DNA of 47,500 nucleotides from a virus: positions 1-47,500 of IMG/VR virus record IMGVR_UViG_3300042923_001129; one strand, given 5' to 3'. A program made the position numbers and the translations under genes. Under the pieces are notes generated by a model. That model saw only the letters and a list, made by a program, of their open reading frames with translations, had not been told where the DNA came from and searched no databases. Of this stretch, positions 92 through 47,500 are shown one piece after another; position 1 is the first letter of the stretch; each line of letters begins with the position of its first letter.

Positions 92-127
92 GGAGCCGAC
101 TACGGGACTTGAACCCGTAACCCCCGT
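92..127 (-). other. attL core: duplicated 3' end of a tRNA gene
   Basis: These 36 bases are repeated exactly at the right end of the window (47465-47500). Read on the minus strand they give a T-arm (stem ACGGG/CCCGT around loop TTCAAGT), an acceptor 3' strand AGTCGGC, and TCCA including position 91. This is the 3' part of a tRNA gene, a standard target of tyrosine integrases. To the right (higher coordinates) the sequence no longer folds as the rest of a tRNA, so this is the leftover 3' fragment and the host/phage boundary. An 11-bp repeat CGATTCGTGGA (54-64 and 84-94) overlaps its outer edge. Isotype cannot be read because the anticodon half is missing; a U discriminator would fit actinobacterial tRNA-Thr, but that is a guess. 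Confidence 0.85.
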
Positions 128-8269: not shown

Positions 8270-8279
8270 GATGACCTCC

Positions 8280-32709: not shown

Positions 32710-32945
32710 CCTTGGATTCCTTCCCGCATCTTCCGCATCCGGAGCTGGTGCACCGGATCCGCCATCAGTCGCGCCCGCCAGTAGGCGAGCAGCACGTCCT
32801 CTCGCACGACCCGGACGCGCTGGCCGTCGCGCACGTCCCAGCCCATTTCGAGCCCGTGCTTGCGCCACCGCCACAGCGTCCGCACCGACCGGTGCACCCG
32901 CGCCGCGGCCTCGCGGTACGTCAGCTCACGGATCTCCTCAGGCAC
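32706..32945 (-). CDS. HTH (MerR/excisionase-like) DNA-binding protein
   Basis: A 79-aa winged-helix protein (ELTYREAAARVHRSVRTLWRWRKHGLEMGWDVRDGQRVRVVREDVLLAYWRARL), with the AlpA/Xis-type 'REAA...S..T..RW...G' helix-turn-helix and wing. It is a second candidate excisionase besides the 44.6-kb gene, or an operon regulator; distance from integrase favours a regulatory role. Confidence 0.75.
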   Translation of the reverse strand: MPEEIRELTYREAAARVHRSVRTLWRWRKHGLEMGWDVRDGQRVRVVREDVLLAYWRARLMADPVHQLRMRKMREGIQG

Positions 32946-33567
32946 GGTGCACCTCGCCGCAGTCCTGGCAGCGTGAGACGACGTCGCCGCCCCAGAGCTG
33001 CGTGCGCACCGCGAGAGCGCCGCAGAGCATGCAACGGCGAGCGGGCGACCGCGGGATCGTCGGCACGCGGCGGTCCGGGTCGCCGTACTGGCCGTGCGCG
33101 GCCCGCACCTGTGCGAACAGGTGGTCCTCGGTGTCGCCGAGCTGGGCGAGCGGCGCGATCCACTCGACGCGGTCGACGAGCCACCCGACGATCACGATCG
33201 CGTCGCGACGGACGTCGGCCGTCGTGCGAATGCCGGCGACCTCACCACGGGCCCGCCAGCGAGCGACTCCGGGGAGCGGGGCGAGTGGCGCAGGCACGAG
33301 GTCCTGCACGTTGTCGGCGTACTGGACGAGCGCCGCCCAGAGGTCGTCGACAGCGTCGATCACCTCAACACGGAACGGGACGGGCGCGCCGTCACGCGAC
33401 GTCTGCACCCGCACCGCCTGGTAGTCGAACGCGGAGATCGACACTGCCTCCGCGCGCATCAGATCGAGCAACCCCGGGATCTGGTCCAGGTGCCACGTCC
33501 AGCGCTGAATCCACCGCTTCCACTGGTCCTCAGGCGTGAGAACCAGAGCCTCGAGCACCTCAGGCAC
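32938..33567 (-). CDS. hypothetical protein with C-terminal zinc ribbon
   Basis: A 209-aa protein starting at GTG 33567 (VPEVLEALVLTPEDQWKRWIQRWTWHLDQIPGLLDLM...), helical N-terminus, then a ribbon RRCMLCGALAVRTQLWGGDVVSRCQDCGEVH at the end. Related zinc-tailed proteins occur in Microbacterium phages without known function. It overlaps the HTH-repeat gene upstream by 8 nt. Confidence 0.6.
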   Translation of the reverse strand: MPEVLEALVLTPEDQWKRWIQRWTWHLDQIPGLLDLMRAEAVSISAFDYQAVRVQTSRDGAPVPFRVEVIDAVDDLWAALVQYADNVQDLVPAPLAPLPGVARWRARGEVAGIRTTADVRRDAIVIVGWLVDRVEWIAPLAQLGDTEDHLFAQVRAAHGQYGDPDRRVPTIPRSPARRCMLCGALAVRTQLWGGDVVSRCQDCGEVHRA

Positions 33568-34903
33568 GGGCGACCTCCACCGCGAGGAGACGTTCAGCCT
33601 TCGACGCCTCGACATTGTCGGCGAAGACGCCCTTGCGATCGCCGCTGCGGCCGTAGATCAGGTCACCGATACGGCTGCGATGCACACCGGATGCGGTCGC
33701 GATCGCGTCGAGAGTCATGCCGCCAGCCATCAGCGTGCGCACGTGCTCACGGACCGGCGCCGCGTCCACTCGCGGTGCAGCGGCCGGAACGCCGGCTTCC
33801 CGACGTCGGCGGCGCTCCTCGGCGAGCATCGCGTCGGTGCACGACACCTCGGCCGGGCATGCGCTGCGGCCGCGGCATCCGAGCTGGTATCCGTACGGCG
33901 TGCCGTGATGCACAGCCTCGAGCGGCTCGGCGCGGCGCCTCGCTTTGTACTGCCGGTGATACTCGCGGTTTGCCGCGACGCACTCCTCACGGCGGCATCC
34001 GCGGGCGTAGCAGGCGTTCGTGCCGTGCGGCTGCAGCTTCTCGGGCGATCGCCTCCTCGTGGCCGGACGATGCGCGGTGAGCTTCAGCTCGCGGCGCAGT
34101 CGGCCGACCTCGCTGTGATGCAGCCCGAGCTTTTCGCCGATCTGCCGGTCCGTGAGGCCCTCAGCGTGCGCCTCTGCGACCTCTGGGCGGCGATCGCGGC
34201 GGCGCTGGTAGACGGTCCGCTTGCGTGCTGCCCGTTCCTTGCGGTGAGCGGGCAGCTTGAGGTCGCGCCGGAGCGTCCCGGCGTAGGCCGGCGCGATGCC
34301 CAGCTCAGCAGCCACCTCGTCGTCGCGGAGACCCTGCGCGTGGAGCCGTGCGACGTCGGCGCGACGGTCCTTGCGGGGCCGCAGCTCACGGCCGACACGC
34401 GGGATGCGCGCGACGACGACAGGGGCGAGCCCGAGATGACGACGGACCCGACCCACGGTGTCGCGGGAGATCCCAATCTGCTCGGCGATCTGCCCGTCGT
34501 CCAGGCCCTCACCGCGTAGCCGCGCGATCTCGGCGGCGTGCGCGGTGGCGGCAGTCGCGCGCGGCTCGCGCGGCGGCTTCGGAGCCTTCGGTGGGCGAGG
34601 TGCTCGGACCGCCCGCACGCGCGCCGGCTTCCTGGCCGCGGCCTCCCGGCGCCGCTCGGCGATCGCTGCCTGACGGTCGCGCTGCCGGGTGGCCTCACGC
34701 TCAGCTTCGTCGCGGGCGGCGATCTCGGCCGCGGTCATGCCGGCGTCGATCAGCTTCCGGAACGAGTAGTCGCCCTGGTAGCGGCGGTAGACGTCGCGGC
34801 AGGCGATCGCGGATCCGCACGCCGAGCCGTGGCATCCCTGGCGGTAGCCGTCGACGGTGCCGTGCGGGAACGAGGGGTCGTAGAGGTCGAAGGTGCGGCT
34901 CAC
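33560..34903 (-). CDS. protein with four HTH repeats and three HGT/Cys motifs
   Basis: A 447-aa basic protein with unusual repeated design. Three HGTxxxYxxGC...C motifs occur at residues ~14-36 (HGTVDGYRQGCHGSACG), ~293-310 (HGTNACYARGCRREEC) and ~333-355 (HGTPYGYQLGCRGRSACP), likely zinc-binding. Three near-copies of an HTH (~123-159, 181-217, 240-276), each ending 'V..(L)RR(D/E/H)L(K/G)L', follow pattern AxGLxDxQIAxxLGI. A fourth HTH is at 384-420 (MTLDAIATASGVHRSRIGDLIYG). Arg/Pro/Ala linkers join them. Small proteins with one HGT motif are common in actinophages; this string is not one I recognise. Probably a DNA-binding organiser or regulator. GTG 34903 overlaps the upstream stop. Confidence 0.75.
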   Translation of the reverse strand: MSRTFDLYDPSFPHGTVDGYRQGCHGSACGSAIACRDVYRRYQGDYSFRKLIDAGMTAAEIAARDEAEREATRQRDRQAAIAERRREAAARKPARVRAVRAPRPPKAPKPPREPRATAATAHAAEIARLRGEGLDDGQIAEQIGISRDTVGRVRRHLGLAPVVVARIPRVGRELRPRKDRRADVARLHAQGLRDDEVAAELGIAPAYAGTLRRDLKLPAHRKERAARKRTVYQRRRDRRPEVAEAHAEGLTDRQIGEKLGLHHSEVGRLRRELKLTAHRPATRRRSPEKLQPHGTNACYARGCRREECVAANREYHRQYKARRRAEPLEAVHHGTPYGYQLGCRGRSACPAEVSCTDAMLAEERRRRREAGVPAAAPRVDAAPVREHVRTLMAGGMTLDAIATASGVHRSRIGDLIYGRSGDRKGVFADNVEASKAERLLAVEVARA

Positions 34904-35232
34904 AGTTCCACCACCGAGTAGAGGTCCTCGAACACCGCGGGGGCGGCGAACTCGTGGCGGCATGCCTGGCACACCGCGGACTCGCCAAGGAGGTTTAGGA
35001 CCAGGAGTCGGGCCTCGATCGAGCTGCGCGCACGGGGCAGGCAGTCGGCGCAGATGAGCGACGTCGCCGGGCAGCAGGCCATCGAGCCCGCGTAGGCCGC
35101 TCGGCGCCCGCAGCTCTCGCACCCTGCGATGTCGCCAGCGCGGGACGCCAGCTCGCGGAACGCTTCCTCGTCGTGGATGCCGAATCGCACGACCTCGTCG
35201 CGCTCTGCAGGCGACATCTCGGCGGCGCTCAC
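34900..35232 (-). CDS. multi-Cys zinc-finger protein
   Basis: A 110-aa protein with CESCGRRAAYAGSMACCPATSLICADCLPRARS and later CQACRHEF, likely two zinc sites. The N-terminus (MSPAERDEVVRFGIHDEEAFRELA) is helical. ATG overlaps the Spo11-like gene stop by 4 nt, so the two are probably translated together. Confidence 0.65.
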   Translation of the reverse strand: MSAAEMSPAERDEVVRFGIHDEEAFRELASRAGDIAGCESCGRRAAYAGSMACCPATSLICADCLPRARSSIEARLLVLNLLGESAVCQACRHEFAAPAVFEDLYSVVEL

Positions 35233-36158
35233 AGCTCGTCCTCGGCGAGGAAGTCGGTGACCTCGTGCCAGCGCTCGGCGATGGTGTCGAACTTCGCCCG
35301 CTCCTCGCGCTCCTGCTCGACGAGCGCGTTGAACGCGTCGACGTCCATCTCGGACTCGATCTCGTCACGGATCAGCGTCACGAGGTCCTCGGGGCGCACC
35401 GCGTCCAGCTCCCAGGACTCGTCTCCGTACCGGTCGCGATACGACTCGAACCGTGAGTCGGTCACTTTCGCCGGGTTCGGCGGCGGGTTGAGGTCCTCGA
35501 TCTGGCCCATGTTGAGGGCGATGCGCCGCACCTCGATCGGGCGCTCGGCGAAGAGGTTCAGCCGGTCGGCGATGTCTCGGGTCATGTCGATGCCGGACGG
35601 GTCGTGGTCCCCGAGGTGAAGGATCAGCGGGTCCTGCCCGTGCACCGCTGAGATCTCGCGGAGGCGGCGGCCAGCGGCCCACATCTCCGACTGCGAGACG
35701 TACCCCTTGCAGGCGAAGTAGCCGACGCGGAGTCCGCCGCATGCGCGAGAGGCGACTTCCTCGAGCGCCTGCTTCTCGACCCACACCTCAATGCGGCGCG
35801 TCTGGTCCTGCCAGAGATCGAGTGAGTAGCCCCACTTCGCGTTGCGGATCAGCTCGGCCTGCTCGGCGGGCGTGTGTCCGGCCCAGCTCGTGCCGTGCGC
35901 CTCGCGGCCGCGGTCCTCGATGTGCGACCAGTCCATGATCCCCGCGAGTCGCGCGTCGTTGACGATGCGACCGAGTCGGTTGTAGCTCTTCTCGCTGTTC
36001 GGGATCAGGTCACGTGCGACGAACTGGTAATAGAGCTGGCGCAGCGAGAGGTTGAACCCACGCGCGCGATAGTCCGATGCGATGGCGTCCGCCTGGCGCA
36101 TCATCTCGAGCGTCTCGGGACGGAACGCCCGGAGATCGGTGTAGGCGATGCGAGGCAT
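35229..36158 (-). CDS. Spo11/Topo VI-A-like TOPRIM protein (Mini-A type)
   Basis: A 309-aa protein with both parts of the type IIB topoisomerase A subunit. A winged-helix (5Y-CAP) region LSLRQLYYQFVARDLIPNSEKSYNRLGRIVNDARLAGIMDW has Tyr43/Tyr44 where Spo11 and Topo VI-A carry the DNA-cleaving Tyr. A TOPRIM domain has IEVWVEKQALEE (Glu128) and LHLGDHDPSGIDM (Asp184, Asp186), matching the VEK and DxDPxG motifs of the family. It continues IALNMGQI...WELDAVRPEDLVTLI. No B-subunit (GHKL ATPase) gene is near. Stand-alone 'Mini-A' relatives have been described in mobile elements; their function is unsettled. ATG 36158 is coupled to the J-domain-like gene. Confidence 0.75.
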   Translation of the reverse strand: MPRIAYTDLRAFRPETLEMMRQADAIASDYRARGFNLSLRQLYYQFVARDLIPNSEKSYNRLGRIVNDARLAGIMDWSHIEDRGREAHGTSWAGHTPAEQAELIRNAKWGYSLDLWQDQTRRIEVWVEKQALEEVASRACGGLRVGYFACKGYVSQSEMWAAGRRLREISAVHGQDPLILHLGDHDPSGIDMTRDIADRLNLFAERPIEVRRIALNMGQIEDLNPPPNPAKVTDSRFESYRDRYGDESWELDAVRPEDLVTLIRDEIESEMDVDAFNALVEQEREERAKFDTIAERWHEVTDFLAEDEL

Positions 36159-36799
36159 CAGATCAGTCCTGCCTGTCGGAGCTTGGTCTCGGCGAGCGAG
36201 ACGCGCTGGAAGACATCGACGTCGCCGCCGTTGTCGGGGTGTGCGGCACGCTGCGCCTCGCGGAAGATGCGCGGTGTCCACGTCTCGGCCGGCTCGTAAC
36301 CGGCGACCTCACGGATGAATGCCGCTGCCTGGTGCGCGTTCGCGAACCCCTGGGGCGCCGCGGTGGCCTCGATCGCGAGGAAGCCGCGGTACTGCTCGCC
36401 GCGCTTCGTGACGCCGTAGCGGTCGACCTTGCGCAGCGCCTCGAGCACGAGCGCCACCGCGCGCAGGTTGTCCTGCCAGCTGGTGAAGGTGTCGCAGGGG
36501 TACGAGAGATGCCCGAACTTCGAGTCGAGCGAGACGATCACGCCGGGATGCTCCGGCACCGCGTTGGCCCGCGGCCGCCCGTCGAGGCGCCAGGCATCCG
36601 TCCCCGCGGGGATGGCGATTAGCATCTCGAGCGAGTCGCGCTGCTCGCGGTTCTCGGTCAGGTGCCAGACCTCACGGTCGAGCACCTGGAGCGTGTCGCG
36701 CAGTCCGGCCTTGAACTTCGATGAGATACGGGTGCGGGTGAGTTCGCCCGGCCACTCGCGGATCGGCGCCGCCTTCAGGCTTGCCGGCCAGTCGCTCAT
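36158..36799 (-). CDS. protein with C-terminal J-domain-like (HPD) segment
   Basis: A 213-aa protein. Residues ~1-160 are an unassigned alpha/beta region (RISSKFKAGLRDTLQVLDREVWHL...DGRPRANAVPEHPGVIVSLDSKFGHLSYPCDTFTSWQDNLRAVALVLEALRKVDRYGV). Residues ~172-211 read TWTPRIFREAQRAAHPDNGGDVDVFQRVSLAETKLRQ, with the HPD of DnaJ-type domains at 187-189 and the following NGGD typical of phage J-like proteins. J domains stimulate DnaK. Coupled by one-base overlap to the Spo11-like gene. Confidence 0.7.
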   Translation of the reverse strand: MSDWPASLKAAPIREWPGELTRTRISSKFKAGLRDTLQVLDREVWHLTENREQRDSLEMLIAIPAGTDAWRLDGRPRANAVPEHPGVIVSLDSKFGHLSYPCDTFTSWQDNLRAVALVLEALRKVDRYGVTKRGEQYRGFLAIEATAAPQGFANAHQAAAFIREVAGYEPAETWTPRIFREAQRAAHPDNGGDVDVFQRVSLAETKLRQAGLI

Positions 36800-37278
36800 G
36801 CTGCACCCCCGACGACCTCGTGGTCGACGCGGGAGCAGCCGCACGGGTGCTCCTCGACGTCGTCCCCGTCAACCAGCGCGATACCGGTGCACGCGCCGTG
36901 CTTCTCCTCCTTGCACTCCCGGCAGATCGGGGCGACGTCGAACCGGTGGGATGGTGTTGCGCGTCCGCAGGTGACAGCGTCAGGGTCTGTCGTGAGCCGG
37001 TCGACCTTCGGGAGGTCCTCGACCTCACGGCCGCAGCACGGCAGCGGGGAGAGGTCGGAGCCGGGCATCGCGTGGACGACCTCGGCCCATGCGCGCTTGT
37101 CGTTCTCGAGGTCCGCCTTCGCCAGCTCGGCGACGCGCACCAGCTCGGCAGCGAGGATGATCGCCTCGTCGGCTGTGTAGTGCTCCCGCTTGCGGCGCAC
37201 GCGCAGCTGGACGCCGTACTCGTCCGACGGCTCAACCTCGGCCACCGGCCGGGTCTCCGTCCGCTCGACCGCGATCAT
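36796..37278 (-). CDS. hypothetical Cys-rich protein
   Basis: A 160-aa protein (MIAVERTETRPVAEVEPSDEYGVQLRVRRKREHYTADEAIILAAELVRVAELAKADL...) with Cys pairs in LPCCGREV, CRECKEEKHGAC and HPCGCSRVDHE, consistent with several zinc sites. Unknown role in the replication/early cluster. ATG 37278; 4-nt overlaps on both sides. Confidence 0.6.
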   Translation of the reverse strand: MIAVERTETRPVAEVEPSDEYGVQLRVRRKREHYTADEAIILAAELVRVAELAKADLENDKRAWAEVVHAMPGSDLSPLPCCGREVEDLPKVDRLTTDPDAVTCGRATPSHRFDVAPICRECKEEKHGACTGIALVDGDDVEEHPCGCSRVDHEVVGGAA

Positions 37279-37553
37279 CGCTCGCCGTCCTTGCTCAGCC
37301 CGAGCGCTTCCCATACCTCGCCCGCGACGCCGACGCGCAGCTTGTCGAGGTCGTAGCCGACGTCATCCTTGGTCGAGTCGATGACCCAACCGGCGACGGT
37401 GATCAGGTTCGCGACGCGGAGCTGCTCGACGAGCGCGAGCGTCGCGTGCGCCTGGGCAGCCGCGATGAGGTTCGCAGCCGTGGCGGGTTCGTACGAGCCC
37501 GCGTCGTTGAGTTGCTGCGCCGCGCGCGCAGCACGGTCGATTCGTTCAGCCAC
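37275..37553 (-). CDS. hypothetical helical protein
   Basis: A 92-aa protein (VAERIDRAARAAQQLNDAGSYEPATAANLIAAAQAHATLALVEQLRVANLITVAGWVI...). A pattern of Ala-rich helices with 'AAQAHATLALVEQLR' is common in actinophage early proteins of unknown function. GTG 37553 overlaps the upstream stop by 8 nt. Confidence 0.6.
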   Translation of the reverse strand: MAERIDRAARAAQQLNDAGSYEPATAANLIAAAQAHATLALVEQLRVANLITVAGWVIDSTKDDVGYDLDKLRVGVAGEVWEALGLSKDGER

Positions 37554-37788
37554 GGTCGGACTCCTTCGTGTCGTAGCCGAGCGCCTGGCGGACCTCGGCG
37601 CGGGTCTGGTTGCGGCGCTCAAGGCGCACGATCGCGGCATCCGTCGTCGACCGCGGCGACGCCTCGTGCTCGAGCGCGTTCACGCCGAGCGTCAGGACCT
37701 TGAGCCGGTTCGAGAGCCGCAGCTCGGCGACGAGTTCGGCGAGCAGATCGACGATCCGCGGCGCCTTCGGCTTCGTGGTGGTGGGCAT
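37546..37788 (-). CDS. small hypothetical protein
   Basis: An 80-aa basic N-terminus and helical protein (MPTTTKPKAPRIVDLLAELVAELRLSNRLKVLTLG...RRNQTRAEVRQALGYDTKESD). ATG 37788 follows GGAACC; it is 14 bp from the helicase stop. Confidence 0.55.
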   Translation of the reverse strand: MPTTTKPKAPRIVDLLAELVAELRLSNRLKVLTLGVNALEHEASPRSTTDAAIVRLERRNQTRAEVRQALGYDTKESDRG

Positions 37789-37802
37789 GGTGGTGGTTCC
37801 TT

Positions 37803-39026
37803 TCAGAGAGTGACCGCGGGTGCCCACGGCCAGGTTTGGTGCGGCCGGGACCGGTCGCGGCGGAAGAGCTTCTCGGGCCAGGCGCGGGCGTCACGGTCTC
37901 CGCGCCAGCGGACGACGTGGAACGGGCGCGAGCCGTGCTCCAGCTCCTTGCTCGCCGAGATACCGAGGCCGAACTCGGGCCAGCCGAGCAGCGCCGACGA
38001 GCCGCGGGGACGGAGGTCCCGCTCGCCGCGCGAGGACTGCGTGTGGCCGGCGTGAGCCTCGATGAGCATCGCGACGTTGCGGTCCCGCAGAGAGTCGAGA
38101 GCGGCGATCACCGGGGCCGCGTCGTCGTCGTCCTTGATCGAGCGAGGGACGAGCTTGTACAGCGGTCCGATGAGCAGCAGATCCGGGCGCGTCTCGTCGA
38201 CGAGCCGGTGCACCATTCCGAGGTCCTGCGGCCGGGTGATGTCGATCTGCTTCGTCAGGCAGTGGATTGCGACGTTCTCAAGCGGGTCGCCATTGCCGAG
38301 CAGCGCAGCCTGCGCCGCCATGTCGCGGACCGCGCGACGCCACTGCCGCTCGCTGTTCTCCGCGTCGACGACGAGGACCTTGACGGGATCGATCGGTGAG
38401 AACCGGAACGGGTGGATGCCCGCCGCGGAGAGCACTGCGATCTGTCGGAGGAACGTCGACTTGCCGCCACCCTCGGAGCCGGTGAGCACGAGACGGTCGC
38501 GGCGCTCGAGCAGCCCCGGCACCGCCCAGTCGTACTGGTCGACCTCGGGAGCGACGTCGAGCACTTCGCGCAGCGACCGTGCCCGGATGACACCGCCCGA
38601 CATGTCGCGATCGCGGATCTTGCGGAGCGCCTCGATCGAGTCCTGCAGCGCGACGCCCGGCTCCCGCACCTCGAGCAGCCGGCGCCCGACGTTCTGCAGG
38701 TCCCGGATGAGCGCCGCCTCCCGCACGATGCGTGCGTAGTAGGGAGCGGACGTCGGAGCCGTGACCGCCGTCGACCAGGCGGTGAGGTCCCCGACGTCGA
38801 TGCCGCGCACCTCCCACTCGGCGAGGTGATCCCAGACGGTGAGGTAGTCGACCGGCTCGCCCTTCGCGGCCATGCCGACGATGCCCCGGTAGATGTCTCC
38901 GAGCCGGAGGTCGGCGAAGTCGGCGGGGATGATCTCCTCGCGGACCGAGCGGAGCACTGCGGGGTCGAGCAGCAGCGAGCCGATGACGTGGCGCTCGGCG
39001 ACGTCGGCCGGCGTGCCCGCGCTCAC
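37803..39026 (-). CDS. DnaB-like replicative helicase / AAA ATPase
   Basis: A 407-aa protein: a DnaB N-terminal-like helical domain (residues ~5-110; DVAERHVIGSLLLDPAVLRSVREEIIPADFADLRLGDIYRGIVGMAAKGEPVDYLTVWDHL), then a RecA-like ATPase with Walker A GSEGGGKST (~183-191), VLVVDAENSERQWRR and a late LIEAHAGHTQSSRGERDLRPRGSSALLGWPEFGL, resembling RepA/AAA_25-type helicases. It would be loaded by the replisome organiser two genes upstream. GTG 39026 is coupled by overlap. Confidence 0.85.
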   Translation of the reverse strand: MSAGTPADVAERHVIGSLLLDPAVLRSVREEIIPADFADLRLGDIYRGIVGMAAKGEPVDYLTVWDHLAEWEVRGIDVGDLTAWSTAVTAPTSAPYYARIVREAALIRDLQNVGRRLLEVREPGVALQDSIEALRKIRDRDMSGGVIRARSLREVLDVAPEVDQYDWAVPGLLERRDRLVLTGSEGGGKSTFLRQIAVLSAAGIHPFRFSPIDPVKVLVVDAENSERQWRRAVRDMAAQAALLGNGDPLENVAIHCLTKQIDITRPQDLGMVHRLVDETRPDLLLIGPLYKLVPRSIKDDDDAAPVIAALDSLRDRNVAMLIEAHAGHTQSSRGERDLRPRGSSALLGWPEFGLGISASKELEHGSRPFHVVRWRGDRDARAWPEKLFRRDRSRPHQTWPWAPAVTL

Positions 39027-39241
39027 GATCCGTCCCCGCACATGCAGGAGCCGTCGACGGCTTTCTCGGTCCAGCAGCCCGGGCAGATCTCGCGGATGAG
39101 ATCCATGCGCCCGGGCGGGCAGTGCTCGTGGACCCACGTCGCCTTGCCGCCGTCGAGCGGGTCAGGCTTGATGAAGTCGCCGACCTCGATCCAGCCCTCG
39201 CACGCGGGGCACTTCGTCGGGATCTTCGCTGCGACGCTCAT
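39023..39241 (-). CDS. zinc-finger protein
   Basis: A 72-aa protein (MSVAAKIPTKCPACEGWIEVGDFIKPDPLDGGKATWVHEHCPPGRMDLIREICPGCWTEKAVDGSCMCGDGS). CPAC...WVHEHC is a recurrent finger in actinophage DNA-metabolism operons, with a second Cys cluster at the end. It lies between organiser and helicase, overlapping both by 4 nt, and may be a replication accessory factor. Confidence 0.7.
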   Translation of the reverse strand: MSVAAKIPTKCPACEGWIEVGDFIKPDPLDGGKATWVHEHCPPGRMDLIREICPGCWTEKAVDGSCMCGDGS

Positions 39242-40017
39242 CGGTTGAACGCCATCCACGAGTCGGGACCCTCAAGCTCCGACGACAGCGGAGCGGGAGC
39301 CGAGCCACCACCCGACGTCTCGACGCGAGGAGGAAGCGCCTCGTCCTCCCACGAGCCGCGGTTCAGCCACGTCGCCGGATGAGGGATGAACTGCTTCGGC
39401 GGCAGGTTCGGATCCGCAGCGAACCGGCGAGCCGCCTCAACGATCTCCACTGCGCTCGCCCGCTTCACCGCCTTGTCGAACGCCGCGCGCGCATCCTCCT
39501 TCGCGACCTTCCGCGGATACGCGAGATAGAACTCCGCGAACGTCGGGACGGGCGCCGGAGGCTCCACCAGCTCATCGCCAGAGAACAGACCGTGATCTCC
39601 TGACAGATGGTCTTCGGAGGAAATGGTGTTCTTAGTGGTGGATTCACCGCTAGCGGCTGAGCCGTCAGCGGGTGGCCCGCTAGCGGCTGATCCACCGGTA
39701 ACGGAAAATCCGTCACCGGTCGCCGGATCCTGCAGCTCGTACTCAACCTCGTTGAATCGACCACCCTCACCGCGCGACTGCCCGACGCGGAGGTACCCGT
39801 ACTCCTTCAGCTCCGCGAGAGCCGACTTGATCGCGTCGCGACCCTCGACGCCGGCCTTCTGCAGCCCCGCCACGGTGACGTGCCAGCCGACCCGGTGCGA
39901 CATGATCTCCACGAGCAGCCCCCGTGCACGGCGTGACAGCCGGGCATCGCGCACCCACTCGTTCGGCACCTGCGTGAAGTGCCCCTCGAATTCGAGAGCG
40001 GTCCTTCGAACGCCCAT
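39238..40017 (-). CDS. replisome organiser (initiator) with HTH and DnaD-like end
   Basis: A 259-aa protein: an N-terminal winged helix (FEGHFTQVPNEWVRDARLSRRARGLLVEIMSHRVGWHVTVAGLQKAGVEGRDAIKSALAELKEYGYLRV, residues ~10-77), a low-complexity linker with GSAASG repeated (~105-155), and a C-terminal helical domain FAEFYLAYPRKVAKEDARAAFDKAVKRASAVEIVEAARRFAADPNLPPKQFIPHPATWLNRGSWED typical of phage replication initiators. The linker DNA holds iteron-like repeats (39640-39720), as in lambda O where the origin lies in the initiator gene. ATG 40017 overlaps the HNH gene stop. Confidence 0.82.
   Translation of the reverse strand: MGVRRTALEFEGHFTQVPNEWVRDARLSRRARGLLVEIMSHRVGWHVTVAGLQKAGVEGRDAIKSALAELKEYGYLRVGQSRGEGGRFNEVEYELQDPATGDGFSVTGGSAASGPPADGSAASGESTTKNTISSEDHLSGDHGLFSGDELVEPPAPVPTFAEFYLAYPRKVAKEDARAAFDKAVKRASAVEIVEAARRFAADPNLPPKQFIPHPATWLNRGSWEDEALPPRVETSGGGSAPAPLSSELEGPDSWMAFNR
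39640..39720. repeat. iteron-like repeats inside the initiator gene: candidate origin
   Basis: CCGCTAGCGGCTGA occurs at 39647-39660 and 39677-39690 (each with palindromic core CCGCTAGCGG), with a related CCGTCAGCGG between them. A near-palindrome ACCGGT-A-ACGGA-AAA-TCCGT-C-ACCGGT follows at about 39694-39720. An AT-richer stretch lies just to the left (39618-39645). Confidence 0.55.
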
Positions 40018-40454
40018 CAGATAGATCCCTTCATCCCGACCAGCAGCGGACTCGCGTCCACCCACCGGTCCCATTCCTCAGGCCCGTAGACCTCACGCAT
40101 CTGTGCGGCCGCAGCCGCAGCCGAGAGCCGGGCGACGCCGCCCTCGGGAGTGAGCAGCCCCCACGCCGCCCGGGTCCGGTTGAACATCGGCACCCGCTCC
40201 ACACCGGCCACCCACGTGCGGACCTTCCAGCCGCACGCGAGCGCGACCGTCTGCAGGTCCGACTCGAACCGCATGTTGCAAAGGGCGCACGCCGTCGCCA
40301 GCTCGTGCGGCAGCGGCCGCACCTTCGAGCCGCCCGCCCCGACCCGCTGCCGGTGCTGCATCTCGAGCGGTGAGGTGCGAGCGCCGCACGAGACGCACGC
40401 CTGCCCATCGCGGAGCAGCACGAGCCCGCGGTCCTTCGGCGACGGCGCGACCAT
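40017..40454 (-). CDS. HNH endonuclease-like protein
   Basis: A 145-aa protein with CVSCGARTSPLEMQHRQRVGAGGSKVRPLPHELATACALCNMRFESD: CxxC, an MQH in place of the usual DHxxP, and CxxCN, an HNH-type zinc nuclease core. Such small HNH proteins near replication genes occur widely in actinophages. ATG 40454. Confidence 0.7.
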   Translation of the reverse strand: MVAPSPKDRGLVLLRDGQACVSCGARTSPLEMQHRQRVGAGGSKVRPLPHELATACALCNMRFESDLQTVALACGWKVRTWVAGVERVPMFNRTRAAWGLLTPEGGVARLSAAAAAAQMREVYGPEEWDRWVDASPLLVGMKGSI

Positions 40455-40945
40455 CAGATGCCCCGCCGTCCGGTCGGAGCGGGCATCCACGTCAGCTCGA
40501 TCTGCTTCGCCATCGTCTGCACTCGCGACGTGTAGTCCGACAGCAGATTGCCCATCCGCCGCGAGTACTCGAACGCCGCGATCGCCACGTCGTACTCGTC
40601 CTGCAGCGCTGTCGTGTCGAGCACGATGTGCGCTGTCTGCTGGGGTCCCGGGAGGTTCGAGTACTTCAGCCGGGCCGCCGCCTTCGCCCGGTTGAGTCGG
40701 GATGCCGCCTGCCTCTTGAACGCCTCGGCTTTCAGGATCACGAGTGTCATCCGCGCAGCCATGCCTGAGACGGCCGCGAGTTCGGCGATGCACCAGTCCG
40801 GGGTCCGGATCTCCCCGTCCTCGAGCGCCGACGACGCCAGCAGCCGAGCGTCATCGGCATAGCCCTCGATCGACTCGACGTCGACCGGGTCGCCGTTCGG
40901 CCACACGAGCACCTCGTCATCGGCGAGCACCAGGACGTCAGACAT
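40454..40945 (-). CDS. hypothetical helical protein in recombination block
   Basis: A 163-aa protein (MSDVLVLADDEVLVWPNGDPVDVESIEGYADDARLLASSALEDGEIRTPDWCIAELAAVSGMAARMTLVILKAEAFKRQAASRLNRAKAAARLKYSNLPGPQQTAHIVL...), long helices in the second half. Location between exonuclease/Sak4 and replication genes suggests a recombination accessory role; no family recognised. Confidence 0.6.
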   Translation of the reverse strand: MSDVLVLADDEVLVWPNGDPVDVESIEGYADDARLLASSALEDGEIRTPDWCIAELAAVSGMAARMTLVILKAEAFKRQAASRLNRAKAAARLKYSNLPGPQQTAHIVLDTTALQDEYDVAIAAFEYSRRMGNLLSDYTSRVQTMAKQIELTWMPAPTGRRGI

Positions 40946-41261
40946 CGAACGCACCCGCCTCGACGACCTCGACGCGATCGTCACGGTGACGCTCGAGCAC
41001 GATCTCCGCACCGCCCTCGGTCTGCACCGTGAAGTGCATGACTCCCGGCATCCGAGACTCGCGCGGCAACGCCTGCACGACCGCCTGCTCGCCGCGCAGC
41101 TCTCCGACCGAGACGGTGTCCCCCGGCATGACCGCCCACACGGGGACCGCCCCCGGGACGACGACGCCTCCGCGCGTCATCCCGGGAGCACGGCGCCAGT
41201 CGACGCCGAGGATCGCACCGTGCCGAGTGCGCACGAGCGGAGCCTGATCCGTGGTGCTCAT
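40938..41261 (-). CDS. hypothetical beta-rich protein
   Basis: A 107-aa protein (MSTTDQAPLVRTRHGAILGVDWRRAPGMTRGGVVVPGAVPVWAVMPGDTVSVGELRGEQAVVQALPRESR...). Strand-rich; unknown family. Overlaps the next gene by 8 nt and the Sak4-like gene by 4 nt. Confidence 0.55.
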   Translation of the reverse strand: MSTTDQAPLVRTRHGAILGVDWRRAPGMTRGGVVVPGAVPVWAVMPGDTVSVGELRGEQAVVQALPRESRMPGVMHFTVQTEGGAEIVLERHRDDRVEVVEAGAFDV

Positions 41262-42331
41262 CGGACGAGCGCCTCCTCGTCGGCGGGCACGTCGGCCGTC
41301 GGCCAGTCACCCTCCGCAGGAGACGTGTTCTCCATCGCCGAGGGCTCATCTGCCGCGACAGGAGCGACCGCGGCATCCGCAGATGCCTCGACCGCAGCGG
41401 GCGCGTCAGTGGGCGCCGGAGCGGACAGCTCGTGCTTACGGACGTCCTTCGCCTCGACCAGCTCCGGCTCCTTGCCGAGCCCGAGCTTCACGACGTCGGT
41501 CCACACCTTCTGCAGCTCCGCCATCGTCCGCGCTCCCGCGATCGCAGCGAGCGCGTCCTCCAGGCCCGAGTCCTGCACGATTCCGGAGTGCGACCGCTCC
41601 CCCACGCCAGCGGCGAGGCCGAGCTGGTCCCAGAACCACGGCAGCGAGAAGTCGCCCGGGAGCTTCCGAGGCTCCGGGAGAGCGATGCGAGCCGAGCGGA
41701 CACCCGTCAGCAGGAAGTGCCCACGCTCGTGCATCTCGATCACAGCCGACGCGTCGAACGGGAGCGTCTTGTGGCTCTGGATCTTCCACTCCTTCTCCTG
41801 CGTCGGCTGCCCGTTGCGCATCACCATGACGTTGTCGATGCGCGCGGTCACGACGACCGGCCCCTGGTGCCGGAGAAGTGGGTTGATGATCCCGGCCCAC
41901 TGCGCCGCGGCCGCGTTCCACAGATCCGGCGTCACCGAGTAGTCCCCGGTCAACGGGTCCTGACGGCCCTTCGCCTTCCGGTTCGCGACTGCCTGCGCGT
42001 TGTCGACGATGAGGTTCCACGCCCGAGTCGCCGAGTCGAAGACGATCAGCGTCGGCTTCCCGTCGACGCGCGGCTCCGCCACCGCGTCCTCGACCGCGCC
42101 ACGGATGCCCGCATAGGTTCCGTCGTGCAGGACGATGTCGAAGTCCGCACCCGGGATAGCCGAGTACTCGTCCGGGTCGTCCTCACCGACACCGATGTAG
42201 AGCGTCCGGCCGACGAGCGGCGAGGTCGAGCCGTGCAGAGCCGTCCACGTCTTGCCCGCCTTCTCCCGACCACCGAGCAGCACGACAGGCCACGACGGGA
42301 GCCCCGTCGGCTTCCTGGTCTGGAGCGCCAT
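41258..42331 (-). CDS. Sak4-like RecA-fold ATPase (recombinase)
   Basis: A 357-aa protein: a RecA-like core (residues ~1-225) with Walker A GGREKAGKT (20-28), acidic strands TLYIGVGEDDPDEY and LIVFDSATRAWNL, and RIDNVMVMRNGQPTQEKEWKIQSHKTLPFDASAVIEM, followed by a helical and then acidic Ala/Pro-rich tail (~300-357) like those that contact single-strand-binding proteins. Sak4-type ATPases act in phage homologous recombination by annealing or strand exchange. It is adjacent to the RecE-like exonuclease, as expected for a recombination pair. Confidence 0.78.
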   Translation of the reverse strand: MALQTRKPTGLPSWPVVLLGGREKAGKTWTALHGSTSPLVGRTLYIGVGEDDPDEYSAIPGADFDIVLHDGTYAGIRGAVEDAVAEPRVDGKPTLIVFDSATRAWNLIVDNAQAVANRKAKGRQDPLTGDYSVTPDLWNAAAAQWAGIINPLLRHQGPVVVTARIDNVMVMRNGQPTQEKEWKIQSHKTLPFDASAVIEMHERGHFLLTGVRSARIALPEPRKLPGDFSLPWFWDQLGLAAGVGERSHSGIVQDSGLEDALAAIAGARTMAELQKVWTDVVKLGLGKEPELVEAKDVRKHELSAPAPTDAPAAVEASADAAVAPVAADEPSAMENTSPAEGDWPTADVPADEEALVR

Positions 42332-43194
42332 CAGAACACCTCCACACCGGTCAGGCGGGAGACGTCGGCGAGGTAGTACGCCGGAGGCTCGATCTCGGCC
42401 ACCGGCCCTTCCTCGTCGTCAGCGCCCGGCCACACGTCGAACTCGACGCACGACTGGAACAGCTCGATCGCGTAGCGCATCCGCGCATACCCACCGGCCT
42501 GCCACTTCTCGCCGAGTTCGACGACCCGCACCTCGTACGGCGCCTCCTTCTCGACGAAGATCAGCCGCACCGGCTCCGCCTCGACGCCGAGCACCAGGCG
42601 CACCAGCAGCCGGTACACCTCGCCCTGCACGTCGTAGCCGAAGTCCTGGATCACGGCCCGGAGCTTGAACTCCCGCACGTCCGGCGTCGTCTTGACGTCG
42701 AACGGCAGCGCGCCGGCCAGCCCGTCCAGACGCCCGCGGAGCGGCACACCCGTCTCCGGGTCGATCGCGAACAGCGACACCTCCGTGCGCCGAGGCAGCT
42801 CGAGGATCGCGCGGGCCTTCGGGTTCCGCAGGATGGACTCCGCCATCGCCGTGACAGCGATGTAGTCCTTCGGCTTGAGCGGCACCTTCCCCTCGGAGCG
42901 GATGCGCTCGACGTTCTCCTTGGCTGCGTTCGACCTGATCGCCTCACCGTCGGAGAGCAGCGTCGCGTCGATCTGCTCGATGGGAGCGCCGACGCCGAGC
43001 ACCAGCGCGTGCGCCGCGTGCCCCACGTCGAACGCCCGCTTCTCCACCCGCACCGACCGCGACTGCAGGTAGTGCAGCGGCGACCGCAAGAGCTGCTTCA
43101 TCCCAGACGCCGACAGCGCCGGGTGCGCGTGGTACTCCTCCTCGGGCATCGCCTCGACGAGCGTCGCTCCGTCCTCCGGAGGCCACTCGGTCAT
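42331..43194 (-). CDS. RecE/PDDEXK-type exonuclease
   Basis: A 287-aa protein of the DUF3799/exodeoxyribonuclease VIII-like type: N-terminal YHAHPALSASGMKQLLRSPLHYLQ...FDVGHAAHALVLG, catalytic RGRLDGLAGALPFDVKTTPD (Asp157, Asp166, Lys168 of the D-(D/E)xK core), and IQDFGYDVQGEVYRLLV for the third motif. It would resect DNA 5' to 3' for recombination with the Sak4-like ATPase. ATG 43194 overlaps the small upstream gene. Confidence 0.82.
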   Translation of the reverse strand: MTEWPPEDGATLVEAMPEEEYHAHPALSASGMKQLLRSPLHYLQSRSVRVEKRAFDVGHAAHALVLGVGAPIEQIDATLLSDGEAIRSNAAKENVERIRSEGKVPLKPKDYIAVTAMAESILRNPKARAILELPRRTEVSLFAIDPETGVPLRGRLDGLAGALPFDVKTTPDVREFKLRAVIQDFGYDVQGEVYRLLVRLVLGVEAEPVRLIFVEKEAPYEVRVVELGEKWQAGGYARMRYAIELFQSCVEFDVWPGADDEEGPVAEIEPPAYYLADVSRLTGVEVF

Positions 43195-43361
43195 CGAGCA
43201 CCGCCCTTCGACGACTCCGCCGCGAGCGCAGCATTCGCGGCGAGCACGGCCTGGCGTTCGGCGAAGATCTCGCGCGCCGACATGCGGAAGCCCTGCAGGA
43301 TGCGGAGACGCTCGCTCTGCACCGTCGGCGACGGCCGCCCCTTGTAGATCCCGCGGGCCAT
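43191..43361 (-). CDS. small basic protein (56 aa)
   Basis: MARGIYKGRPSPTVQSERLR then ILQGFRMSAREIFAERQAVL..., a basic helical peptide. It overlaps the exonuclease start (ATGA) and the preceding stop (43361-43363), so it is firmly inside the operon. It may modulate the nuclease; no family known. Confidence 0.65.
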   Translation of the reverse strand: MARGIYKGRPSPTVQSERLRILQGFRMSAREIFAERQAVLAANAALAAESSKGGAR

Positions 43362-43663
43362 CACTCGCCGCCCTCGAGATCCAGCTCGGGCAGGTCGAGC
43401 GCCTCGTTGCCGGTGCGCGCCTTGTACGCCCGGTCGAGCATCGCCCTGGCCGCCGTCACGTCGTTCTCGGTGACAGGCTCGACCCGCGCGAACCGGATCG
43501 TCGGGTACTGCTCGCCCTTCTCGTCGTTCAGCGTCCGCTTCGACTGGCGCACGAGCGCCACCACGACGACGTCGTCGGCACCCGGCTCCATGAAGTGGTC
43601 GTGCAGCCGCTCCAGTCCGTTCAGCTCCTCGCCGGGCCGCTGCCCAGAGAACATCACGCTCAT
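43361..43663 (-). CDS. hypothetical protein of recombination block
   Basis: A 100-aa protein (MSVMFSGQRPGEELNGLERLHDHFMEPGADDVVVVALVRQSKRTLNDEKGEQYPTIRFARVEPV...). This pattern (VVALVRQSKRTLNDEKGEQYPTIRF) recurs in actinophages beside exonuclease genes, with unknown role. ATG 43663 is coupled to the resolvase gene. Confidence 0.65.
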   Translation of the reverse strand: MSVMFSGQRPGEELNGLERLHDHFMEPGADDVVVVALVRQSKRTLNDEKGEQYPTIRFARVEPVTENDVTAARAMLDRAYKARTGNEALDLPELDLEGGE

Positions 43664-44283
43664 CGATTCATCCCTTCGGTGGTGGTTGCGGCGAGCACGA
43701 GCGGCCCGCCCTCTCCCGGCCACGCGACCTTCGCGTGCGCCGAAACCTGTGCGGCCGAGTACTCGACCGGCATGCCGAACCACGCAGCGCCCGCCTCAGC
43801 GAGAGCCACCGCGTCGGCGACGTTGTGATCCGGCACGTGAGCTGCCGGGATTCGTGCACGGACCGCCTCCAGGACCGGCGCCTTCGCCTGATCCGAGGAC
43901 TGCCCCTTCTTGCGGCGGGGCATCCCGCGCCCCCACGCGAGGACCGCGCGCGTCTGCGGGTCGACGAGCACCACAGGTCCGCGGGCGCAGAGCTGGTCGA
44001 TGAGCATCCAGCGCAGACCCGACCGCTCGTCCGCCTTGCCGGAGAACTTCGCCGACGGCGCCGGCCCCTCGACCACCGAGAGATCGACCTTGACCGGGAC
44101 GATGGACAGGATCTCGCTGAGCATGATTCGGATGCGGCGACGCTCAGCCGCGACCGACGCGTCGGCCGGCGCCGGGGTCTTCGCCCGCCACGTCTGCCAC
44201 GCCGGAGCCTCGTGCCCCTCGCCGAACGCGACGGTCGCGCAGCCCGAGGCCGTCAGCGACGTGTCGAACCCCGCGACAATCAC
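43660..44283 (-). CDS. RuvC-like Holliday junction resolvase
   Basis: A 207-aa RNase H-fold protein: AGFDTSLTASG (Asp7), LSVVEGPAP (Glu72), and HVPDHNVADAVALAEAGA (Asp152/Asp157) as the acidic catalytic residues, in the order expected for phage RuvC-like resolvases. It would cut recombination or replication junctions before packaging. GTG 44283. Confidence 0.82.
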   Translation of the reverse strand: MIVAGFDTSLTASGCATVAFGEGHEAPAWQTWRAKTPAPADASVAAERRRIRIMLSEILSIVPVKVDLSVVEGPAPSAKFSGKADERSGLRWMLIDQLCARGPVVLVDPQTRAVLAWGRGMPRRKKGQSSDQAKAPVLEAVRARIPAAHVPDHNVADAVALAEAGAAWFGMPVEYSAAQVSAHAKVAWPGEGGPLVLAATTTEGMNR

Positions 44284-44480
44284 GACGCACCGCCCTCGTG
44301 GCAGTCGCACTCGCAGATCGGGCATCCGCCGTGGATGCCGGCAGCGCAGTCGAGCGACTTCGGGATCCGCGCCTCGCGACGCTCGAGCCCCGAGTACCAG
44401 ATCGCGACGGCGACTGCGATCACGATGAGCGCGGCCATCGCGAGCCAGTAGACGGCGAGGACGACGTCGGCCCGGCTCAT
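44280..44480 (-). CDS. small membrane protein with Cys-rich end
   Basis: A 66-aa single-span protein (VLAVYWLAMAALIVIAVAVAIWY) with a cytoplasmic-type tail ending CAAGIHGGCPICECDCHEGG, a dense Cys cluster that may bind metal. Unknown role; ATG 44480, coupled on both sides. Confidence 0.6.
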   Translation of the reverse strand: MSRADVVLAVYWLAMAALIVIAVAVAIWYSGLERREARIPKSLDCAAGIHGGCPICECDCHEGGAS

Positions 44481-44647
44481 CGCCGCACCTCGCGATCGAA
44501 GAACCCGAGGCACGCAGCGACGATGACGACCACCGTCGCGAACGCACCGACGAGCCAGACCCCGTCGTACTCGCGACGCACGCACACCCAGACGAGCGCG
44601 AGCACCACGCCGAACACGAACGCGGCCGCAAGCATGAACCGGATCAC
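44477..44647 (-). CDS. small two-span membrane protein
   Basis: A 56-aa protein starting GTG 44647 (VIRFMLAAAFVFGVVLALVW...VWLVGAFATVVVIVAACLGFF) with two hydrophobic segments. It follows the excisionase-like gene and may be a superinfection-exclusion-type protein, which is only a guess. Confidence 0.6.
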   Translation of the reverse strand: MIRFMLAAAFVFGVVLALVWVCVRREYDGVWLVGAFATVVVIVAACLGFFDREVRR

Positions 44648-44835
44648 GGGGTCACCGCCAGCGAGTCCTGCCACGCCTTGACCGCGTCCTCGTCGTAGCG
44701 CACAAGACGCCCGACCTTGATGTACGCGGGCCCGATAGGCGTCTGCTCGGTCGACTCCGATCGCCAGTTCGCGAGCGTGCCCACGGAGATGCCGATGCGC
44801 TCCGACACCTGGACCGGCGTCAGCCAGGCGCTCAC
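44644..44835 (-). CDS. excisionase-like (AlpA/Xis) HTH protein
   Basis: A 63-aa protein (MSAWLTPVQVSERIGISVGTLANWRSESTEQTPIGPAYIKVGRLVRYDEDAVKAWQDSLAV), a textbook winged HTH of the AlpA/Xis type (LTP..VS...GIS..TL.NWR...GP.YIK.GR.VRY....V..W). It is the second gene of the early operon, so it would be made on induction, and probably directs integrase toward excision. Confidence 0.85.
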   Translation of the reverse strand: MSAWLTPVQVSERIGISVGTLANWRSESTEQTPIGPAYIKVGRLVRYDEDAVKAWQDSLAVTP

Positions 44836-45762: not shown

Positions 45763-46250
45763 ATGTCGGCGCCCTCGCGGAGGCTAGACCCGCGAACTAC
45801 ACACAGGGGGAACGCTTGCGGGAGCTGATGGCCTACGCAGCGCGGCGGGGGGTCGCCGTGCACGTTGCACACCTGCCGAGCCCGTACCGGGGCTACTACG
45901 ACCCGGAACGCCGGCACGTCGTCTACGACTTCAACCTCACCCCAATCGAGCGACGCGTCGTGCTCGCGCACGAACTTGGCCACGACCACCACGGCCACGC
46001 CTGCGAGGACGATCCCGACTACGAACGGGCAGCCGACATCTTCGCCGCCCGCCTCCTGATCGACCCCGCCGAGTACGCGCAGCTCGAGCGCGTCACGCAC
46101 GACGTCGACGCGATCGCGGAGGAGATGGGCGTCACCCCAGACCTGGTCCGCATCTACCAGCAGCACTGCATCACCCAGCTCCGAGGTGTCACGTACGCCC
46201 GGGCACGGATGGGTGTCGGGCAGTGGCAGTTCAGGAGCGCGCATGCCTAG
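45759..46250 (+). CDS. ImmA/IrrE-type metallopeptidase
   Basis: A 163-aa zinc peptidase: HELGH (His71-Glu72...His75, HExxH) and the third ligand region DYERAADIFAARLLI (Glu89). In ICEBs1 and related phages, ImmA cleaves the adjacent repressor during the SOS response. Here it is directly downstream of a repressor lacking its own protease, supporting the same induction route. GTG 45759 is coupled to the repressor stop; the end overlaps the integrase start by 8 nt. Confidence 0.85.
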   Translation: MNVGALAEARPANYTQGERLRELMAYAARRGVAVHVAHLPSPYRGYYDPERRHVVYDFNLTPIERRVVLAHELGHDHHGHACEDDPDYERAADIFAARLLIDPAEYAQLERVTHDVDAIAEEMGVTPDLVRIYQQHCITQLRGVTYARARMGVGQWQFRSAHA

Positions 46251-47385
46251 GCCACCGCTCGTCCTCGAGACATGGGGCAAGATCCGCCGCACCGTCGTCG
46301 ACGGCCAGCCGACTGCGGTCGCCTACTACCGCGACAGCGACGGCATCACTCGGAAGATGCAGCGCCAGGGCAAGTCTGGCGCGGACGCCGAGCGAAAGCT
46401 CATCGAAGCCATGAAGGCCCGGCTCGCACCCGCAAGCGAGGACCTCACCCGCGACACCCGCCTGAGCGTGCTCGCGAAAAAGTGGATGGCTGAGACCGAA
46501 GCACGCGACCTCGCGTCCGGCACCATCCACCAGTACCGGCAGTCGCTCGACCGCCACATCGTGAAGGGCCTCGGGGACGTGCGTCTCGCGGAGGCATCCG
46601 TGCCCCGGCTCGATCGGTTCCTGAAGACCCTCGTCGAGACCTCCGGGCCCGGGACGGCAAGGACCGCCCGCGTCGTCCTCCTCGGCATGTTCGGCATGGC
46701 TTTGAGGCACGGAGCGATCGACTCGAACCCACTTCGAGACGTCACTATCCCGCGGCCGAAGCGGAAGCGGATCACGGCACCGGATGCCGAGACAGTGAAG
46801 GGCGTACGAGCCCGGTTCGCCGAGTGGGATGCCGGAGTCGACAAGCGCGGCCAGCCACGCGTGACCGATCTCCTGGACCCCTGCGACATGATCATCGGCA
46901 CCGGCATGCGTACGGGCGAGCTGCTCGCGCTGCGCTGGGATGATCTCGACCTTGACGCTGGCACGGCGACCGTCGACAAGACGATCGCGCCGGGCGTCGA
47001 CGGGAAGCTGCACGTGCAGGACAAGCCGAAGAGCGACACGTCCGAGCGGATGCTGTTCCTCCCGCCGCACGTGGTGCAGATGCTCCTCCGGCGCCGGGTC
47101 GACTCGCACTCGGAGTTCGTGTTCCCGTCGAGCACCGGCACCTTCCGGCACCCGAACAACTACCGGTCGAAGTGGCGCGAGGTATTCGAGGGGACGCCCT
47201 ACGTCGGCACCACCCCGCGGTCGTTCCGAAAGGCCGTCGCGACCGCACTCAAGGACTCGCTCGGCGTGGGTGCTGCGGCGAAGCAGCTCGGCCACGCATC
47301 CGAGACGACGACGATCCAGCACTACGTCAAGCAGGCGCACCTCGGACCGGAGGGTCAGGCCGTGCTCGAGGAGTTCTTCGCCTGA
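46243..47385 (+). CDS. int: tyrosine-family integrase
   Basis: A 380-aa site-specific recombinase: arm-binding N-terminal region, core-binding helical domain (~70-165, LSVLAKKWMAETEARDLASGTIHQYRQSLDRHIVKGLGD), then a catalytic domain with Arg223 (TGMRTGELLALRW), Lys263 (KPKSDTSER), R326-SF-R329 in place of HxxR, His351 (LGHASETTTIQHYV) and nucleophile Tyr361. The box II His is thus Arg. ATG 46243 is chosen by overlap with ImmA; the longer frame from 46186 adds antisense-like sequence. It lies beside attR, so it integrates this phage into the tRNA gene. Confidence 0.92.
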   Translation: MPRPPLVLETWGKIRRTVVDGQPTAVAYYRDSDGITRKMQRQGKSGADAERKLIEAMKARLAPASEDLTRDTRLSVLAKKWMAETEARDLASGTIHQYRQSLDRHIVKGLGDVRLAEASVPRLDRFLKTLVETSGPGTARTARVVLLGMFGMALRHGAIDSNPLRDVTIPRPKRKRITAPDAETVKGVRARFAEWDAGVDKRGQPRVTDLLDPCDMIIGTGMRTGELLALRWDDLDLDAGTATVDKTIAPGVDGKLHVQDKPKSDTSERMLFLPPHVVQMLLRRRVDSHSEFVFPSSTGTFRHPNNYRSKWREVFEGTPYVGTTPRSFRKAVATALKDSLGVGAAAKQLGHASETTTIQHYVKQAHLGPEGQAVLEEFFA

Positions 47386-47464: not shown

Positions 47465-47500
47465 GGAGCCGACTACGGGACTTGAACCCGTAACCCCCGT
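47465..47500 (-). tRNA. attR core: 3' end of the target tRNA gene (truncated by the window)
   Basis: Exact copy of 92-127, running to the last base of the window. The T-arm and acceptor 3' strand are visible; the anticodon half lies beyond the window, so identity is unknown. Here the base after TCC is G (position 47464 is C on plus strand), whereas the left copy has TCCA. So the phage-supplied 3' end does not encode a full CCA, and the host nucleotidyltransferase would have to add it. Confidence 0.8.

Follow-up and report, generated by a model that had tools for sequence, protein, structure and literature searches.

The minus-strand gene examined here, carried by a prophage, encodes a clear member of the already described phage family Mini-A, and in our assessment phage Mini-A proteins are probably ATPase-free enzymes of the Topo VI-A/Spo11 superfamily that combine a winged helix with a TOPRIM domain and cleave phage DNA. 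The most likely form of this activity would be that of a homodimer cutting DNA independently of ATP on phage replication intermediates. The DNA analyzed, a virus record 47,500 bases long, is referred to as the window. The open reading frame starts with ATG, stops with TGA, lies on the minus strand at the position given in the preliminary description, and is a genuine conserved gene (Table 1).

The window was earlier called a prophage, and its tyrosine integrase and the perfect 36-nt direct repeat at both of its ends bear this out. By eye, the reverse complement of the repeat resembles the T-arm and 3′ acceptor portion of a tRNA, and ARAGORN detects no complete tRNA in the window. Since such a repeat pair is the trace of integration into a tRNA gene, the two repeats very probably bound a complete element. 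A second, near-perfect repeat (24 nt, 96%; 232–255 and 47383–47406) lies just inside the att repeats and possibly represents integrase arm-binding sites, and two tandem 39-nt repeats, 87% alike, occur at 2565–2642 within a small plus-strand gene. Other genes of the window encode a repressor, a Mu-type portal, a tail tape-measure protein and a metalloprotease of the type adjoining phage repressors. A probable large terminase (24914–26686, minus strand) is placed by its position beside the portal, its family matches being weak (TerL_ATPase, E 0.07). A 447-aa protein (33560–34903, minus strand) has an unusual repeat architecture with three HTH_23-type stretches and two copies of the cysteine motif H-G-T-x2-G-Y-x2-G-C...C.

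Table 1. Positions of the Mini-A gene, its domains and key codons, and of other features of the 47,500-nt window
Feature	Position	Strand	Basis or remark
att repeat, tRNA-3′-like end	92..127		perfect 36-nt direct repeat
Mini-A gene	35229..36158	-	309 aa, stop codon included; phrog_6247, tblastn to NP1 Mini-A, gene model
TOPRIM domain	35346..35825	-	residues 112–271; VIA-align matches
Glu250 codon in the E-x-x-A-L motif, probably the fourth acidic residue, putatively M. mazei E342	35409..35411	-	127/127
Asp184-His-Asp186 codons, TOPRIM DxD, putative metal ligands	35601..35609	-	D184 and D186 127/127, partly retrieval pattern
Glu128 codon, putative TOPRIM metal ligand	35775..35777	-	127/127, partly retrieval pattern
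Winged-helix (5Y-CAP-like) domain	35889..36158	-	about residues 1–90; AF2 of residues 1–118, VIA rows
Tyr44 codon, likely nucleophile	36027..36029	-	127/127
Arg40 codon, putatively equivalent to M. mazei Top6A R102 (spacing in R-x-x-x-Y)	36039..36041	-	127/127
phrog_9210 gene, C-terminal HPD (J-domain-like) motif	36158..36799	-	directly upstream of Mini-A, one-base overlap
DnaB-like replicative helicase	37803..39026	-	phrog_19 E 1e-20
Replication initiation protein	39238..40017	-	phrog_270 E 2e-32
AAA_24 (Sak4-like) ATPase, weak match	41258..42331	-	phrog_1366; PF13479 E 2e-4, below cut-off
RecE/Cas4-type exonuclease	42331..43194	-	phrog_412 E 3e-67; PF12705 above cut-off
RuvC-like resolvase	43660..44283	-	phrog_159 E 4e-20
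Tyrosine integrase	46243..47385	+	phrog_1 E 5e-50; Pfam
att repeat, second copy	47465..47500		perfect 36-nt direct repeat

Assignment to Mini-A follows from homology along nearly the whole chain. The family phrog_6247 ('DNA topoisomerase') matches residues 4–306 at E 8e-104, and tblastn aligns the Mini-A of Pseudomonas phage NP1 over residues 5–297 (95%) at 42.4% identity and E 2e-66. Relatives were found by tblastn in 75 phage records, and in 69 of these the match extends over 80% or more of the query. The closest reside in Curtobacterium and Microbacterium phages (60–64% identity), followed by Pseudanabaena phage Pam3 (51%), the Salmonella chi-like phages (44–45%) and the Pseudomonas phages NP1 and PaMx25 (42%). 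Mini-A proteins are described as truncated Top6A homologues of archaeal viruses and bacteriophages with NP1 as the exemplar (PMC7614492), as chiefly carried by mobile elements (PMC8185306), and as an ancient viral homologue of Topo VI-A and Spo11 (PMC11302465). The window protein has the corresponding features: homology to NP1 Mini-A, a winged helix and a TOPRIM domain in a short chain, a phage-borne setting on a mobile element, and a lone A-type gene with no B subunit or GHKL gene found beside it. No feature separating it from the family was found, and it stands as a prophage member near the Curtobacterium and Microbacterium phages. The original Mini-A paper is reportedly that of Takahashi et al. 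2020. The proposal that this is a stand-alone Topo VI-A/Spo11-like protein of the Mini-A type thus gains support from the winged helix beside the TOPRIM domain and from the 42% identity to NP1 Mini-A. No Pfam, NCBIfam or PADLOC model reaches the window protein (the best Pfam row, DUF6063, E 0.11, is below the cut-off), and Pfam TP6A_N does not match it. Neither TP6A_N nor TOP6A-Spo11_Toprim passes the cut-off for this protein; their best E values in relatives are 0.024 and 0.009, with TP6A_N matching 15 of 127 homologues weakly. PDB searches with the single sequence and with a profile returned no relative.

The predicted fold points to the Topo VI-A/Spo11 superfamily. A full-length AlphaFold2 model built with 127 sequences has a mean pLDDT of 93.9, and its VIA-align matches span the TOPRIM region only, led by M. 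jannaschii Topo VI-A (1d3y, Z 10.9, rmsd 3.9 over 147 residues). M. mazei Topo VI-A (9o0g, Z 10.7), a C. glutamicum nuclease that we take to be MksG (8b7f, Z 10.6), the stand-alone TOPRIM protein 2i5r (Z 10.2), Topo VI (2zbk, Z 10.0), JetD (7til, Z 10.0) and Spo11 (Z 8.9 for 8urq, and 8.7) follow. The proposed comparison with Topo VI-A and Spo11 therefore returns Topo VI-A, JetD/MksG and Spo11 as the best solved matches of the TOPRIM domain. Residues 1–118 were modelled separately with 99 sequences (pLDDT 87.9), and the winged-helix region named in the preliminary description appears as helices 14–32, 39–48 and 56–71 with a short strand pair. The top VIA rows for this model are the Topo VI-A structures 9o7o and 9o0g (Z 6.7), in which model residues 5–83 match chain residues 39–145, including the M. 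mazei catalytic Y106. An unrelated Fur winged helix is nearly level (Z 6.3 versus 6.7). The presence of a winged helix is well supported by the model, and its Topo VI type is suggested by rank, by the R-x-x-x-Y motif and by the adjoining TOPRIM domain. Foldseek against PDB and BFVD gave nothing below E 0.001, several rows being unrelated Rossmann-like folds. Alignment of profiles to Topo VI-A by hhalign covered part of the TOPRIM domain only (P 0.003) and, for the N-terminal domain, was not significant (P 0.47) while placing Y44 on the Topo VI-A tyrosine. A primase- or OLD-type protein having a TOPRIM domain only is ruled out, as the modelled winged helix precedes the TOPRIM.

The equal nearness of the TOPRIM fold to JetD/MksG (Z 10.0–10.6) and to Topo VI-A raises a different reading, in which the protein would be a nuclease directed against competing plasmids or phages, as in Wadjet and MksBEFG. 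The 5Y-CAP domain of MksG is described as having no candidate for a catalytic tyrosine (PMC10123090), whereas Mini-A retains an invariant tyrosine, Tyr44, in its winged helix. PADLOC is also blank for the window protein, and in a scan of 10 proteins from the window, which mostly lie no more than 8 kb from Mini-A, it reports no Wadjet part and none of the SMC partner genes JetABC/MksBEF. We consider a JetD/MksG-like role improbable.

Conservation identifies the residues on which an enzyme of the Topo VI-A/Spo11 type would depend. An alignment of the window protein with 126 of 158 non-redundant homologues (127 sequences, mostly 44–53% identical to the query) has Arg40, Gln41, Tyr44, Glu128, Asp184, Asp186 and Glu250 in 127/127 and His185 in 126/127. 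The patterns used to retrieve homologues included GDHDP and EK motifs and so account in part for E128, D184 and D186 being invariant; R40, Y44 and E250 lie outside these patterns. By a looser motif count over 175 homologues, DxDPxG as written is missing in one and E-x-x-A-L as searched in two. Tyr43/Tyr44, Glu128 and Asp184-His-Asp186-Pro-Ser-Gly were all found where they had previously been placed. The earlier pairing of the two tyrosines holds for Tyr44, which is invariant, and gives way for Tyr43, which is Phe in 3/127 sequences; for this reason Tyr44 is the likely nucleophile. That some phage records annotate the Mini-A relative merely as 'DNA binding protein' accords with a catalytically inert DNA-binding relic. 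Such a relic is highly improbable, considering that all predicted catalytic residues are invariant at this level of divergence.

The same residues can be set against Topo VI-A itself. The comparison set comprises 18 sequences, one of them bacterial and the others from the same phylum as the archaeal MAG described below; 17 of 30 archaeal loci gave a usable ORF under the filter applied. Its invariant positions are Arg95, Tyr98, Tyr99, Glu195, Asp247, Asp249 and Glu338, the last in an invariant E338-Q-Q followed by A-L. In M. mazei Topo VI the catalytic tyrosine is Y106 and the acidic residues are E202/D254/D256/E342, with R102 and E342 forming an 'electrostatic clasp' reported to restrain cleavage (PMC13040014). 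Mini-A shares the order of a winged helix and then a TOPRIM domain, and throughout its alignment (127/127) carries a Tyr after an Arg in the winged helix and the TOPRIM Glu and DxD. The D-x-D-P-x-G motif is also shared. By spacing, Arg40 and Tyr44 would equal M. mazei R102 and Y106. Glu250 probably equals E342 and completes the Topo VI acidic tetrad, an assignment drawn from the E-x-x-A-L motif and position, since global hhalign did not align the families; the context is E-L-D-A-V in the window protein, with A-L in most relatives, and E-Q-Q-A-L at E342. The stretch ahead of the tyrosine is some 55 residues shorter in Mini-A than in Topo VI-A (Y44 versus Y99 of the Topo VI-A alignment); Mini-A also has no B subunit, and the sequence similarity between the two is barely detectable. 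Neither a Topo VI-A Pfam model above the cut-off nor a paired Topo VI-B gene, both canonical for Topo VI-A, was found for the window protein. With the tyrosine so much nearer the N-terminus, Mini-A may lack the N-terminal helix and the DNA latch that Topo VI-A has there (M. mazei 44–67), an argument from length; 76 of about 107 chain residues align to model residues 5–83.

The absence of an ATPase partner extends well beyond the neighborhood of the gene. The preliminary description noted no B subunit nearby, and this holds across the whole element, HATPase_c having no match in the 47.5-kb record. The same domain is above the cut-off in 0/49 Mini-A virus records, the window included, with one weak match, and in 0/12 complete Mini-A phage genomes. 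Among Mini-A-carrying host genomes, the Topo VI-B transducer domain occurs in 2/48. Together with the lack of conserved neighbors documented below, these searches indicate that Mini-A acts alone or with a generic host protein. The latter could take the form of a full topoisomerase that borrows a host GHKL protein (GyrB, ParE, MutL, HtpG or a histidine kinase) as its B subunit, a generic donor always being at hand, as HATPase_c proteins are present in 14/14 control genomes. This arrangement appears very unlikely in view of the 46/48 host genomes without the dedicated transducer and of a chain seemingly too short for the Topo VI-A N-terminal helix and latch. We favor Mini-A working alone, by analogy with mouse SPO11, which when dimerised is reported to cleave DNA in vitro without partners (PMC11922746). 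Spo11 is otherwise a eukaryotic protein that works with Top6BL and further partners.

Within the window, Mini-A lies between the DnaB-like helicase and replication initiation genes and other early genes, and a promoter and terminator consensus scan of 32900–45300 found none. In NP1 it adjoins Sak4 with a Cas4 exonuclease close by, and in Microbacterium phage Fizzles it adjoins a Cas4 exonuclease with RuvC close by. This placement amid replication and recombination genes in three phages suggests a Spo11-like role, in which Mini-A would deliberately cut both strands of phage DNA. The neighboring exonuclease, Sak4-like ATPase and RuvC would then process the breaks, driving recombination-dependent replication or genome mosaicism. 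The exonuclease, AAA_24 ATPase and RuvC genes of the window belong to the gene block of Mini-A, 5–8 kb upstream of it, and the unaided cutting by SPO11 provides a precedent. Against such a role, AAA_24 and PDDEXK domains are not significantly commoner in the 49 Mini-A records than in 41 random viral contigs of 30–67 kb in which no Mini-A was found. AAA_24 (Sak4) passes the cut-off in 8/49 versus 2/41 (Fisher p 0.10; 11/49 versus 6/41 at E <= 0.001) and PDDEXK_1 in 8/49 versus 8/41 (Fisher p 0.78; 10/49 versus 8/41 at E <= 0.001), leaving an enrichment of recombination genes unsupported. Programmed breaks, the resolution of replication products and help in packaging were earlier suggested as possible roles, and gene content lends a link to recombination no significant support. 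Neighbor HMMs built locally give higher per-Mb rates near Mini-A for SF2 helicase (16/80 loci versus 7/200), PolA (10/80 versus 5/200) and UvrD (9/80 versus 0/200), an excess not counted as evidence because these HMMs were trained on the same Mini-A loci. In other complete phages, the genes near Mini-A include those for ribonucleotide reductase, ThyX, a photolyase or a DNA polymerase, or genes for lysis. In light of this variety and the non-significant enrichment, the early-gene location of Mini-A is common but not diagnostic, and programmed break formation is a reading that we regard as possible yet rather unlikely.

A conserved partner gene was likewise rejected. Among 154 non-redundant loci, the commonest Pfam family occurs in 4/113 genes at +1 and, as HTH repressors, in 6/117 at -1. 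These counts cover 113 of 151 usable +1 genes and 117 of 148 -1 genes, the remainder being mostly short genes and four annotated phages, and they exclude 5/177 loci (L025, L125, L081, L128 and L148). Three J-protein loci and the truncated locus L035 held no usable Mini-A. The phrog_9210 J-domain-like gene directly upstream in the window is near Mini-A in loci L016 and L022, is also present in three loci without Mini-A in the stretch examined, and has no homologue found near Mini-A in L019–L021; it is not a general Mini-A partner. No Pfam model detects the HPD motif of its product, which has a 47% identical relative in Fizzles annotated as a 'DnaJ-like chaperonin'.

An alternative function for a solitary Mini-A would be that of an ATP-independent relaxing or nicking enzyme that relieves supercoiling ahead of phage forks or opens an origin, which we consider doubtful given hosts that already have gyrase and Topo IV. 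Topo VIII resembles Mini-A in being of type IIB and on mobile elements, and it carries an ATPase part, which Mini-A does not. ATP-free DNA relaxation is described for M. marina Topo VIII (PMC7614492), and Mini-A resides in the replication block, adjoining a DNA polymerase gene in RDJL Phi 2. Both the break-making and the relaxing function are narrower versions of the main reading. No biochemical study or published activity of any Mini-A was found in the open-licence PMC literature, and PMC8185306 states that none of the archaeal Topo VIII and Mini-A proteins had been characterised.

A mechanism for the ATPase-free enzyme may be proposed on this basis. Two Mini-A copies would dimerise via their TOPRIM domains. 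In one of them Tyr44, guided by Arg40, would attack the DNA backbone, and the other would coordinate the adjacent Mg2+ through Glu128, Asp184 and Asp186, probably together with Glu250. The products would be 5′-phosphotyrosyl-linked breaks, possibly rejoined. Having no GHKL subunit, the enzyme would have no ATP-driven strand passage, which points to a regulated nicking or double-strand-break, perhaps relaxing, enzyme. Presumably it is expressed from the replication and recombination gene block and acts on phage DNA. The more specific proposal, that Mini-A is a complete, autonomous type IIB break enzyme, a homodimer using Tyr44 to cut phage DNA and perhaps to reseal it with no ATPase partner, is put forward tentatively, at somewhat short of even chances.

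The family is widespread. Alignment confirms at least 515 Mini-A relatives in viral contigs and 185 in bacterial and archaeal genomes; the best 80 from each scan were kept. The hits span many bacterial phyla and include one contig assigned to an archaeal bin. In a maximum-likelihood tree of 155 sequences, the window protein falls into a group of six (support 99) alongside Curtobacterium phage Nonagon, Microbacterium phage Fizzles, two viral contigs and a Leifsonia aquatica locus, and host phyla cluster in this tree, not cleanly. The archaeon-binned Mini-A lies at 8001–8873 of locus L158, from a Nanoarchaeota MAG. As this genome is the sole one among 60 in the phylum sample with no TP6A_N match, its binning or completeness is doubtful. 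The Methanosarcina acetivorans control genome also matches phrog_6247, which reflects either a Mini-A of its own or cross-recognition of a different gene of the Topo VI-A type.

Mini-A proteins are abundant and short, and they come without the B subunit that complicates work on Topo VI and Spo11. If Mini-A does cut DNA alone, it would offer a simple system in which to study the action of the Spo11 cleavage core and the restraints on it, and an autonomous Mini-A would be a naturally occurring prokaryotic equivalent of SPO11 working on its own.
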